DNA of 64,000 nt, taken from the NCBI GenBank assembly GCA_937872385.1, contig CALMSO010000024.1, positions 1 through 64,000 on the forward strand. The letters run 5' to 3'. Source of the stretch: an uncultured Saprospiraceae bacterium (GTDB lineage Bacteria > Bacteroidota > Bacteroidia > Chitinophagales > Saprospiraceae). Each line of letters starts with the position of its first letter. The first letter of the stretch is position 1. Position numbers and translations under genes: made by a program. The notes below the pieces were generated by a model, which was not told the DNA's origin, searched no databases, and worked only from the letters and a program-made list of their open reading frames with translations. Shown here piece after piece: positions 50,330-53,671 of this stretch.

Positions 50330-51370
50330 TTAACACACGCCCGGCGTGCGCATATCTGTCTCACTTTCGAGGCAGCGATAGAAGGATTCGATGTATTCAA
50401 TCATCTCGCGGCGGGCCTCCACCGAGAGCGGCTTGAATTTGTGAATATAATCGAGAAATACTTTTTTATGCGCTTTGAAAAACTCAATGGTAGGTGCCAT
50501 CTCTTCCCCCGAATGCTCAAAGCCCAGCAGCACCCGCTCGCGCACCGTTCGGATGCCGAGCGTAGCGTCGGGGCGGGCGTAGGGCGCACTCACGATGCCG
50601 GAAAAGTCGAAATCGTAAGGCACAATGATGTTTTTGCTGCCGTCTTTGGGTTGTAATAATTTCAGGTTGCGCAGCATAGCCACCGACCAGTCCGAATTGC
50701 CAATCATATATTGAAACAGGCAGTTGCGGGTGAGATTCTCTTCCGTAAAAGTATCCTTAGGCAAGCCGTAGCAACTATTGCAAAATTTGCTGTCGGCGCG
50801 CTCGCGCATTTCGTCATCGTCTTCTACCAGCACATTGTAGCGCGTAAAAGAGCGCTTGCTTTGGCTGTCGCGGTATTTGACGCGTAGCAATTGTACCCGG
50901 AAGCTGTGCGGACTTACGATTTGGTAGAGTTTGTAAGTCAGGTATTCGCGCATGACCAACTCGTCGCTTTGTGCATTGTCAAAACAATGCGTGATCAGTT
51001 TCAGATCGTTGTGGTCATTCAGCCCGGCTGCGGCGAGTTGTTTTTTGGAAAATTTGAAATGTAAGGGCGGAAAGTCGCAAGTTCGGCGGCGGAACTTACC
51101 CCGCACCTGAAGTTTGACTTTCCAGGATTGTTTCTTGCCTTTTTCGTCTTTGAAAGTAAACAAGGCTGGCACTTCGTCTTCTGTACGCAGCGTTCTCAAT
51201 AGCGAATCTAGATCCGTTTCGATTTCTACTTTTAGCACTTCTTGGGTGTGCAATTTGTCAAAAATACTGATGCCCGGCCGCTGCTCAGCCTGTACACCCT
51301 TGGTTATCAGCAATAAAAGTAAGGCCGCGCTCCAAGCGATGAAACCATTTTTGAATATCGGGTTTTTCAT
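50330..51370 (-). CDS. Secreted protein with CotH-like features
   Basis: This 346-residue protein has a signal peptide (residues about 1-28, ending VQA-EQRPG). LKVEIETDLDSLLRTLRTED is followed by WKVKLQVRGKFRRRTCDFPP (about 83-102), which resembles the entry segment of CotH-type secreted kinases, and by LKLITHCFDNAQSDELVMRE (about 124-143). A later IGNSDWSVAMLRNLKLLQ and VPYDFDFSGIV (about 255-272) could supply the metal-binding D-x-D of a kinase-like fold. Three cysteines occur mid-protein. The match is by eye only and the family call is uncertain. The start is taken at 51370 for the signal peptide; an in-frame start at 51439 would hide it. Confidence 0.55.
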   Translation of the reverse strand: MKNPIFKNGFIAWSAALLLLLITKGVQAEQRPGISIFDKLHTQEVLKVEIETDLDSLLRTLRTEDEVPALFTFKDEKGKKQSWKVKLQVRGKFRRRTCDFPPLHFKFSKKQLAAAGLNDHNDLKLITHCFDNAQSDELVMREYLTYKLYQIVSPHSFRVQLLRVKYRDSQSKRSFTRYNVLVEDDDEMRERADSKFCNSCYGLPKDTFTEENLTRNCLFQYMIGNSDWSVAMLRNLKLLQPKDGSKNIIVPYDFDFSGIVSAPYARPDATLGIRTVRERVLLGFEHSGEEMAPTIEFFKAHKKVFLDYIHKFKPLSVEARREMIEYIESFYRCLESETDMRTPGVC

Positions 51371-51526
51371 GTCTGCATTTTTCTTTGCTGCAAAGCTGCG
51401 GCATATTTGCATGATAATGCCATATTTTTCGACCAACAAAGTAATAAAATCCGATGACTTGCTATGGAATGGCGAATTGTTGAAAGGATTTTGGGGTTTA
51501 AAAGGGCGAGCGGGGTGCAGTTGGTA

Positions 51527-52378
51527 TTAAAATAATTCTATCTGGTTTTTGACGAACTCAGCCGGTTGTTCGCTGGTGCTGGCGACGCGCTGGGCCATAG
51601 GCAGGATGCGTTTTACGACGCGGAGTTTGTGCGTATAGCGCGATTCTTCTTGGTTGTAAATGCCAAAGTGGTCAATGGTATCTATGCGCACCTTGCCGAA
51701 AGCGTGCAGTACTTGCAGATTGGGGGCAATGAGTCCGACGTGGTTGATGTTGCCTTTTCGGTCTTCAAAAAAAGCGAGATCGCCGGGCTGGGCCTCTTCG
51801 ATGAAATCAATAGCGTCGCCAAGAAATACCTGCTGGGCGGCACTGCGGGGCAGTTTGTGCCCAATGAATTTGAACAACATTTGTACCAGCCCGCTGTCGT
51901 CAATGCCAAAAGGCGAGCGACCGCCAGCCAAGAAAGGGGCATGCAGATAGCGCCGAGCAATTTTTAGAATAAATTCAGCAGCCGGGGCAATGTCACCAGG
52001 AAAAACAGCCTGCCCGCTGAAAGTGTAAGGCAATCCTTCCAACTCGAAGCGAATGCCGTCGAAATTGGGCAATTGGGCGCCGAGGGTAATCGGCATAAAA
52101 AAATCATTGGACATAATGCCCTGCATCAATTCGAGATTGTAAGCAAAATGCTCATTGTAGGTAGCAAACTCACCAGGCGTGACCGCTCGCAGTTGTGTTG
52201 CAGCTACCCAACCTACCAAATTATCCCATTGGCAGCGCACTTTTACCCATTGCCGGCCTTTGGTCTCTAGCATTTCTACCAGCTCGCCGAACAGCAATTG
52301 CGAAGCCATCTCGCTGCTATCCGAGGCGGAGGTGCGCACCGGCACTACACTCAATGGGCAGATTCCATAAGAAGCCAT
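51527..52378 (-). CDS. NlpC/P60 (C40) family protein lacking the catalytic cysteine
   Basis: This 283-residue protein has an N-terminal SH3b-like region (about 1-70, SVVPVRTSASDSSEMASQLL then GWVAATQLR) and a C-terminal NlpC/P60 domain (about 135-270). Active relatives cut peptidoglycan stem peptides with a Cys-His pair. Here the motif that is normally G-I-D-C-S-G reads FGIDDSGLVQ, with aspartate 161 (codon 51896-51898) in place of cysteine. The usual L-W-G-G before it reads FLAGG. The histidine of NINHVGLI is retained. No signal peptide is evident, as in YkfC-like relatives. It starts ATG at 52378; TTG at 52384 is less likely. The fold seems intact, so it may be a binding pseudoenzyme. Confidence 0.82.
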   Translation of the reverse strand: MASYGICPLSVVPVRTSASDSSEMASQLLFGELVEMLETKGRQWVKVRCQWDNLVGWVAATQLRAVTPGEFATYNEHFAYNLELMQGIMSNDFFMPITLGAQLPNFDGIRFELEGLPYTFSGQAVFPGDIAPAAEFILKIARRYLHAPFLAGGRSPFGIDDSGLVQMLFKFIGHKLPRSAAQQVFLGDAIDFIEEAQPGDLAFFEDRKGNINHVGLIAPNLQVLHAFGKVRIDTIDHFGIYNQEESRYTHKLRVVKRILPMAQRVASTSEQPAEFVKNQIELF

Positions 52379-52550: not shown

Positions 52551-52609
52551 GCGCTTCAGAAAAGCAAAAGCCAGATCATCGGTTCAGAAAATCATATATA
52601 ATTCCAAAA

Positions 52610-53671
52610 ATGAAGCAATATTTATTTTTGCTCGCAACCTTGGCAACCGCCAGCATTAGCTTTGCCCAAGACCAGCACTTCACCCAGTTTTATGCCTCCC
52701 CGCTAACGCTGAATCCCGCATTGTCAGGGGCTTTCGATGGTCGCTATCGGCTATCTTCTATCTACCGCGACCAGTGGCGCAATGTATTGGATAATCCCTA
52801 TATCACGATGGGCGGTGCCATAGATATGCGTTTCGGGCTGAATACGCGCCGAAAACGTACCAACGATGCTTTTGGAGCGGGCGTGCAGTTTTTTAGCGAC
52901 CGAGTACCTTCGATAGAATTTGCGACCAATCAAATCATGCTGTCGGGCGCATTTCACAAGGCCTTAAATAAAGCGGGCAACCAGTTTTTGAGCGGTGGGG
53001 CACAAGTAGGTATTGGGCAACGCAACATCAACTACGAGCGTATCAACTTCGCCGACCAGTTCAACGGCACCGATGGTTTTACCGACCCGACCCGAGAAAT
53101 ACTGCCGGAAAATAATTTTTCTTACGGAGACTTGTCCATTGGCTTGAATTATACCTATGCGCCTAAGCGCGCTGTAGGCGTTTTTATCGGCGGGGCTATT
53201 CATCATATCAACGAGCCAGAACTCAGTTTTTTCATCAACCGGGGGCGCCGCGAGGGCGTGCAGTTTGAAAGCACCAATCGCCTGCTGCGCAAATATACCG
53301 GTCATTTTGCTTTGCAAATACCTATGGGCGAGCGCGTGCAACTGCTGCCGCGGGCCTTGGTGTATGCGCAAGGGGCACACGTAGCGGCTAATGTAGGTTC
53401 TAATATTCGTTTTTTGCTCAGTGAATTCGGGGGCACGGCTATGCACATCGGTGGCTGGGCACGCCCGGTGCGCAATCAGGACCGCACTTTCGCCATGGAT
53501 GCGGCAGTGGTCATGCTGGGCTTGGAGGTCAATAATTTTCTCATTGGATTTAGCTACGATGCCAATTTGGGGTATCTCAACAACCTCAATCGCCGCCAAG
53601 GAGCCTTCGAGATTTCCATCGCTTTGCTAGGGCAATACGAGAACGAGACCGTGCTGTGTCCGAGTTTTTGA
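52610..53671 (+). CDS. PorP/SprF family outer-membrane protein (second, orphan)
   Basis: This 353-residue predicted beta-barrel has a signal peptide (MKQYLFLLATLATASISFAQ) and the family opening QDQHFTQFYASPLTLNPALS. Strand segments include VFIGGAIHHINEPELSFF and MLGLEVNNFLIGFSYDANLG. It is related to but clearly different from the copy at 11396. Unlike that copy, it has no adjacent type B adhesin: the neighbours are the NlpC-like gene and nusB. It may serve cargo encoded elsewhere or a general T9SS function. The ATG at 52610 gives the signal peptide; frame upstream to 52298 is spurious. Confidence 0.88.
   Translation: MKQYLFLLATLATASISFAQDQHFTQFYASPLTLNPALSGAFDGRYRLSSIYRDQWRNVLDNPYITMGGAIDMRFGLNTRRKRTNDAFGAGVQFFSDRVPSIEFATNQIMLSGAFHKALNKAGNQFLSGGAQVGIGQRNINYERINFADQFNGTDGFTDPTREILPENNFSYGDLSIGLNYTYAPKRAVGVFIGGAIHHINEPELSFFINRGRREGVQFESTNRLLRKYTGHFALQIPMGERVQLLPRALVYAQGAHVAANVGSNIRFLLSEFGGTAMHIGGWARPVRNQDRTFAMDAAVVMLGLEVNNFLIGFSYDANLGYLNNLNRRQGAFEISIALLGQYENETVLCPSF

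Follow-up and report, generated by a model that had tools for sequence, protein, structure and literature searches.

A predicted NlpC/P60 pseudoenzyme in Saprospiraceae: repeated loss of the catalytic cysteine in a YkfC-like family with a conserved C-terminal motif

The gene described here lies in a 64,000-nucleotide stretch of DNA (the window) from contig CALMSO010000024.1 of an uncultured Saprospiraceae bacterium, where it occupies positions 51527..52378 of the minus strand and encodes a predicted SH3b-NlpC/P60 pseudoenzyme of 283 amino acids. Its translation starts with MASYGICPL, from the ATG at 52378, and ends with KNQIELF. The protein is probably cytosolic, because no signal peptide is apparent in its 283 residues, the SH3 domain beginning at about residue 10. 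This SH3b domain (PF18348/PF08239; residues 10-63, 52190..52351, minus strand), matched by Pfam SH3_16 over residues 14-63 (E 3e-13, 49.7 bits), is followed by an NLPC_P60 domain (PF00877; residues 148-237, 51668..51937, minus strand) that scores 56.5 bits (E 3e-15) against a curated cut-off of 23 and so belongs to the family, the two together giving the YkfC-like arrangement of an SH3b domain N-terminal to NlpC/P60. At the C-terminus, a variable linker (residues 261-278, 51545..51598, minus strand) leads to the sequence QIELF (51530..51544, minus strand), which abuts the stop codon and fits Q-x-x-[LIM]-F, a motif resembling those that bind the sliding clamp.

The active site departs from that of a working peptidase. 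In YkfC, as described by Xu et al. (2010, PMC2954226), the triad is Cys238, His291, and His303, Asp237 and Arg255 organize a hydrogen-bond network, and the surroundings of L-Ala-gamma-D-Glu include Tyr118, Tyr226, Trp228, Ser239, Asp256, and Ser257. Residues of the window protein were mapped to YkfC from this description and from an alignment to solved relatives; those that follow are all encoded on the minus strand. The catalytic cysteine is replaced by Asp161 (51896..51898), the plus strand reading gtc and the coding strand GAC, with the flanks G-I-D160-D161-S-G. A first-pass annotation of the window, made from its sequence alone, had read this codon correctly, together with LAGG containing Ala151, HAFGKVRID containing Phe227 in place of Ser (51698..51700), and a retained active-site histidine. 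Both triad histidines are in fact present, as His213 (YkfC His291; 51740..51742) and His225 (YkfC His303; 51704..51706), alongside Asp160 (YkfC Asp237; 51899..51901) and Arg178 (YkfC Arg255; 51845..51847), so that the Cys-His-His triad of active C40 peptidases is broken at the cysteine. What that annotation missed, besides the C-terminal motif, were the substrate-contact losses Y54->L, Y149->F, and D179->S: Leu54 (52217..52219) stands for the invariant SH3b tyrosine (YkfC Tyr118), Phe149 and Ala151 (51926..51934) for an invariant tyrosine and tryptophan (YkfC Tyr226 and Trp228), and Ser179 (51842..51844) for an invariant aspartate (YkfC Asp256). The YkfC-like signature formed by Tyr118 and Asp256, which hold the free L-Ala amine, is therefore replaced by Leu54 and Ser179. 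Cleavage of the gamma-D-Glu-diamino-acid bond is very probably absent, making the protein a predicted pseudoenzyme; judged by its place in the tree and a shared neighboring gene (both below), it is an ortholog of YkfC-like proteins and not a functional member of the group.

Orthologs were collected with the Cys-less window protein as query in a search of 248 genomes of the same family (threshold E 1e-40), 167 of which hold one ortholog each. Regions were fetched for 120 loci, a few of which belong to other families within the order; together with loci collected earlier they gave 139 distinct aligned orthologs, 126 from the window's family and 13 outgroup, eight duplicate rows having been removed before counting. 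The active-site column holds cysteine in 69 orthologs and lacks it in 70, all of the latter within the window's family, where the figure of 70 of 126 cannot be read as an unbiased frequency because the lowest-ranking matches were left out of the fetch and close relatives of the window are over-represented. Cysteine is kept in 13 of 13 outgroup sequences, and a control across the wider class found it in 46 of 47 orthologs and alanine in one. That one (L263, genome G276, outside the family) reads DASG in a motif otherwise intact (PYQWGGKSPFGIDASGL) and is, by its sequence, an independent loss. A read or assembly error at codon 161, already considered unlikely in the first-pass annotation, is ruled out by the missing cysteine in 70 of 126 family sequences, the nearest relative of the window protein (L063, DSGG) included. 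Replacements comprise Ser (27), Ala (27), Gly (9), Pro (4), and one each of Asp, Thr, and Lys. Because the nearest relative has DSGG, Asp161 is read from the alignment as one state of an already free site and not as a special Cys-to-Asp change. A check proposed with the first-pass annotation, that orthologs might share Asp161, Ala151, and Phe227, found no such residue-for-residue sharing: in the aligned sequences, all three positions vary freely after cysteine loss, position 227 being Tyr, Phe, or His in 49 of the 70 Cys-less orthologs (21, 18, and 10, respectively).

How far the surrounding site followed the cysteine was assessed in the 30 columns that are invariant in the 69 Cys-containing rows, each scored in the 70 Cys-less rows. 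The columns that drop furthest are the catalytic and substrate positions, with Cys161 kept in none of the 70, Asp179 in 7, Tyr54 in 10, Ser162 in 20, Tyr149 in 21, and Trp151 in 36. Retained almost throughout are His213 (69), His225 (70), Asp160 (69), Arg178 (69), and Asp200 (70). In this alignment the pocket is lost along with the nucleophile, while the core network is not. A rival explanation is that the catalytically dead domain acts as a sensor or sink, its former cleft still binding a muropeptide or some other small peptide. The near-invariance of both histidines, Asp160, and Arg178 would suit such a role, as would the precedent of RipD, reported to bind peptidoglycan without catalysis (PMC12067865), and two Cys-less orthologs (L126 and L142) in which all four tested substrate residues, Tyr54, Tyr149, Trp151, and Asp179, are present. 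These four were lost together, however, in 21 of the 70 Cys-less rows, comprising the window protein and 20 others, and the Asp256 equivalent persists in only 7 of 70, so that we consider a ligand-binding role unlikely. For the window protein itself, binding of the original muropeptide is unlikely because the equivalents of Tyr118, Tyr226, Trp228, and Asp256 are also lost, and the peptidoglycan- or peptide-binding function suggested at first pass finds no support as far as the normal ligand is concerned. L126 and L142 (genomes G185 and G096), the only Cys-less rows to keep all four contacts and both with Gly for Cys, possibly represent a recent loss and are good candidates for substrate binding without cleavage.

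A related proposal is that the domain is kept for a different reason, for example a metal site on Asp160, His213, and His225 or a new Cys-free chemistry, the retention of two histidines after cysteine loss being more than a dead protease needs. Against this, the residue at position 161 differs between orthologs (S, A, G, P, D, T, or K), which rules out a substitute nucleophile at this position, and the hydrogen-bond network described for YkfC Asp237 and Arg255 (PMC2954226) could explain the retention without a metal; we regard this proposal as quite improbable.

The tree places these losses in several lineages. Built with the active-site columns excluded, a maximum-likelihood tree requires 12 losses if cysteine is never regained, with at least five changes forced by well-supported branches alone; a second tree, from which 12 long-branch rows were removed, gives a minimum of 10 changes, again with five forced. 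The window protein falls within a clade of 50 Cys-less rows (Shimodaira-Hasegawa-like approximate likelihood ratio test, SH-aLRT, 93). A single Cys-less clade was rejected by the approximately unbiased (AU) test on 75 thinned rows with active-site columns excluded (p-AU 0.011). The Cys-less genes are under strong purifying selection. The ratio of nonsynonymous to synonymous divergence (dN/dS; pairwise Nei-Gojobori, restricted to pairs with dS up to 1.1 as more distant pairs are saturated) was 0.038, 0.039, 0.083, and 0.076 in four Cys-less pairs and 0.052 in the one comparable Cys-containing pair. Decay, in which the gene is heading for loss in the family, could draw on the absence of an ortholog from 81 of the 248 family genomes (E 1e-40), which makes the gene look dispensable there. 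Yet the reading frames are full length, dN/dS is 0.04-0.08, and the 50-row Cys-less clade has been retained over a long divergence; decay is rejected by dN/dS on these few pairs and we leave it only a very slight probability. The alternative raised at first pass, a decaying copy among orthologs that all keep cysteine, fails on the same values and on the 70 of 126 sequences without it, whereas the pseudoenzyme that the first-pass annotation considered possible is well supported by cysteine loss across the family under purifying selection, with neither read error nor decay as the cause.

The second recurrent feature of the family is its C-terminus. Counted from the KRI(L) motif, 90 of the 126 family rows (28 with and 62 without cysteine) run on for 18 residues or more as a tail, and 69 of these 90 tails contain Q..[LIM]F (22 with and 47 without cysteine), where shuffled tails are expected to give 1.1 and reached at most 6 in 500 rounds. 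The motif lies exactly at the stop codon in 52 of the 69 and one residue earlier in 11, placing 63 of 69 within one residue of the C-terminus, while the tail is otherwise variable, its conservation limited to the end. As right-justified entropies were taken from rows selected for the motif, their zeros at Gln and Phe arise by construction and the shuffling serves as the control. In its strict form the motif closes 59 of the 139 orthologs and 0 of 916 flanking open reading frames, and none of the 47 class orthologs carries such a tail. In the 69-row clade that holds the window protein, the tail occurs in all 17 Cys-containing rows and the motif in 16 of these, which is why the tail is most likely older than the loss of cysteine on the window's line.

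Bacterial sliding-clamp ligands, among them Pol IV, UmuC, and transposases, are described as carrying, in most cases at the C-terminus, a motif of the form QL[SD]LF or QLxLF (PMC9690074, PMC3716654, PMC4549789). By sequence comparison, QIELF matches this consensus at Q, L, and F and has Ile instead of Leu at position 2. The sliding clamp (DnaN) is on these grounds a putative partner of the tail, proposed tentatively and with rather low confidence. We rate somewhat higher, though still short of an even chance, the possibility that the motif serves as a degron or docks some partner that is not the clamp; this bears on the identity of the partner and leaves the pseudoenzyme reading untouched. Hydrophobic, unstructured C-termini can serve as protease tags, and the departure at position 2 from the clamp consensus favors such a reading. 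Against it, the conserved Gln at -5 and the terminal Phe are the anchor positions of clamp-type motifs as given in PMC9690074 and PMC4549789. A pattern scan of the window's genome returned 84 sites against 52 for a reversed control; 30 of the 84 were inspected as loci, plus 20 of the remaining 54 that passed a motif filter. Seven open frames longer than 60 amino acids end in the motif, of which two have family support, the window protein and a DUF72 protein (QMSLF), and the other five (in L186, L197, L211, L223, and L226) were judged spurious by eye. The DUF72 protein (L225:104-1057, minus strand, contig C67) ends in KQMSLF, near the clamp-binding consensus, and Pol IV of the same genome has the C-terminus QLRLEF.

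The only widely conserved neighbor of the gene is that immediately upstream on the opposite strand, a divergent membrane protein of the PorP_SprF family (PF11751) of the type IX secretion group (52604..53668, plus strand). It is present at 80 of 120 loci, namely 36 of 59 with cysteine, 40 of 53 without, and four among the eight duplicate rows; its occurrence at both kinds of locus supports the orthology of active-type and inactive forms and for the same reason offers no operon clue that explains the loss. Downstream, a gene at 50330-51439 (minus strand) shows a weak match to CotH-kinase that falls short of the curated cut-off. A catalytically complete paralog, for which the first-pass annotation advised looking, does not occur in the same type: the genome's other two NlpC/P60 genes encode exported-type proteins with FDCSG, which rules out a same-type backup. 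Co-loss of the recycling pathway is likewise not supported, since LdcA-type peptidase S66 was found in 26 of 40 Cys-less and 22 of 40 Cys-containing genomes, and for MR_MLE_C, which takes in more than dipeptide epimerase, the corresponding counts were 31 of 40 and 25 of 40. No S66 match turned up in the genome of the window. An LdcA-type S66 and an MR_MLE enzyme lie no more than about 2 kb apart in genomes of both kinds (e.g., G163, G064, G017, G168, and G211), and their pairing in Cys-less genomes too suggests that part of muropeptide recycling may persist without the cysteine.

The explanation we favor, at about an even chance of being right, is that a cytosolic YkfC-type gamma-D-Glu-diamino-acid endopeptidase of muropeptide recycling has turned into a non-catalytic docking or adaptor protein. 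The ancestor would have been a muropeptidase trimming recycled cell-wall peptides. The tail would hold the protein to a partner, docking of this kind being likely, and it may be for this tail-dependent role that selection now preserves the protein on the window's line; with the role in place, the peptidase site would have been free to go, the tail coming first and the loss of catalysis later. The His213-His225-Asp160-Arg178 network would then support the fold or provide a new ligand or metal site. The proposed partner is DnaN, the known ligands of which have a QLxLF-type motif at the C-terminus. On the fuller account, a clamp-type tail would first have arisen on an active muropeptidase, linking peptidoglycan turnover with the replication machinery; the peptidase site would then have been lost, the enzyme being captured in one bacterial family as a sliding-clamp-bound adaptor that keeps the His-His-Asp-Arg core fold for its new role. 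Taken whole, we consider this account doubtful. Several observations weigh against the docking explanation. The full-length fold claimed at first pass is supported by the alignment, the one structure model, from four sequences, being unusable (mean predicted local distance difference test, pLDDT, 50). The window protein lies outside the four dN/dS pairs, its own nearest pair being saturated (dS 2.45). At position 2 the motif has Val or Ile far more commonly than the consensus Leu, so that clamp binding may be weak or wrong and the motif is best treated as a lead. Finally, cysteine was also lost in tailless lineages (e.g., L131, L135, L154, and L159), and five independent pairs on supported branches show no association of tail with cysteine loss, which means that the loss cannot in general be put down to the tail.

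The family provides a natural series in which one gene at one locus has passed from enzyme to pseudoenzyme about a dozen times, and the coexistence of active-type and inactive orthologs makes the order of new role and loss of catalysis directly askable. If the tail does bind the sliding clamp, muropeptide recycling and DNA replication would be linked in an unexpected way. Literature searches on NlpC P60 as a pseudoenzyme, weakened by the slash in the usual name, and on a Saprospiraceae pseudoenzyme found nothing; one on inactive NlpC, YkfC, and Bacteroidetes returned no title describing this protein family, and one on NlpC together with the sliding clamp turned up nothing but phage-genome papers.

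Among known systems, the best solved-structure matches (E 1e-17 to 4e-11) are the dipeptidyl-peptidase VI proteins 3pvq and 3npf, which we take to come from the genus Bacteroides, and YkfC of Bacillus cereus (3h41). All share the SH3b plus NlpC/P60 architecture, and the Tyr118/Asp256 signature of YkfC is carried by the Cys-containing members of the window's family; the window protein differs in lacking the cysteine and the Tyr118, Tyr226, Trp228, and Asp256 equivalents, and in its added C-terminal tail with Q-x-x-[LIM]-F. In sequence, clamp ligands resemble it through a short motif that opens with Gln, closes with Leu-Phe, and usually lies at the C-terminus, whereas the window family has mostly Val or Ile at position 2 and no attached DNA enzyme. 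An NlpC/P60 pseudoenzyme is already known in RipD of Mycobacterium tuberculosis (4jxb; NF033743), described in PMC12067865 as an NlpC/P60 domain without the catalytic cysteine that is kept in a non-catalytic form. As given there, RipD has all three triad residues replaced (Ala83-Ser132-Glu144) and a pentapeptide-repeat C-terminus, whereas the window family keeps both histidines, looks cytosolic, and has lost its cysteine repeatedly within a single family. What is new here is this recurrence within one family, the retained histidine network, and a conserved C-terminal motif that most likely arose first.
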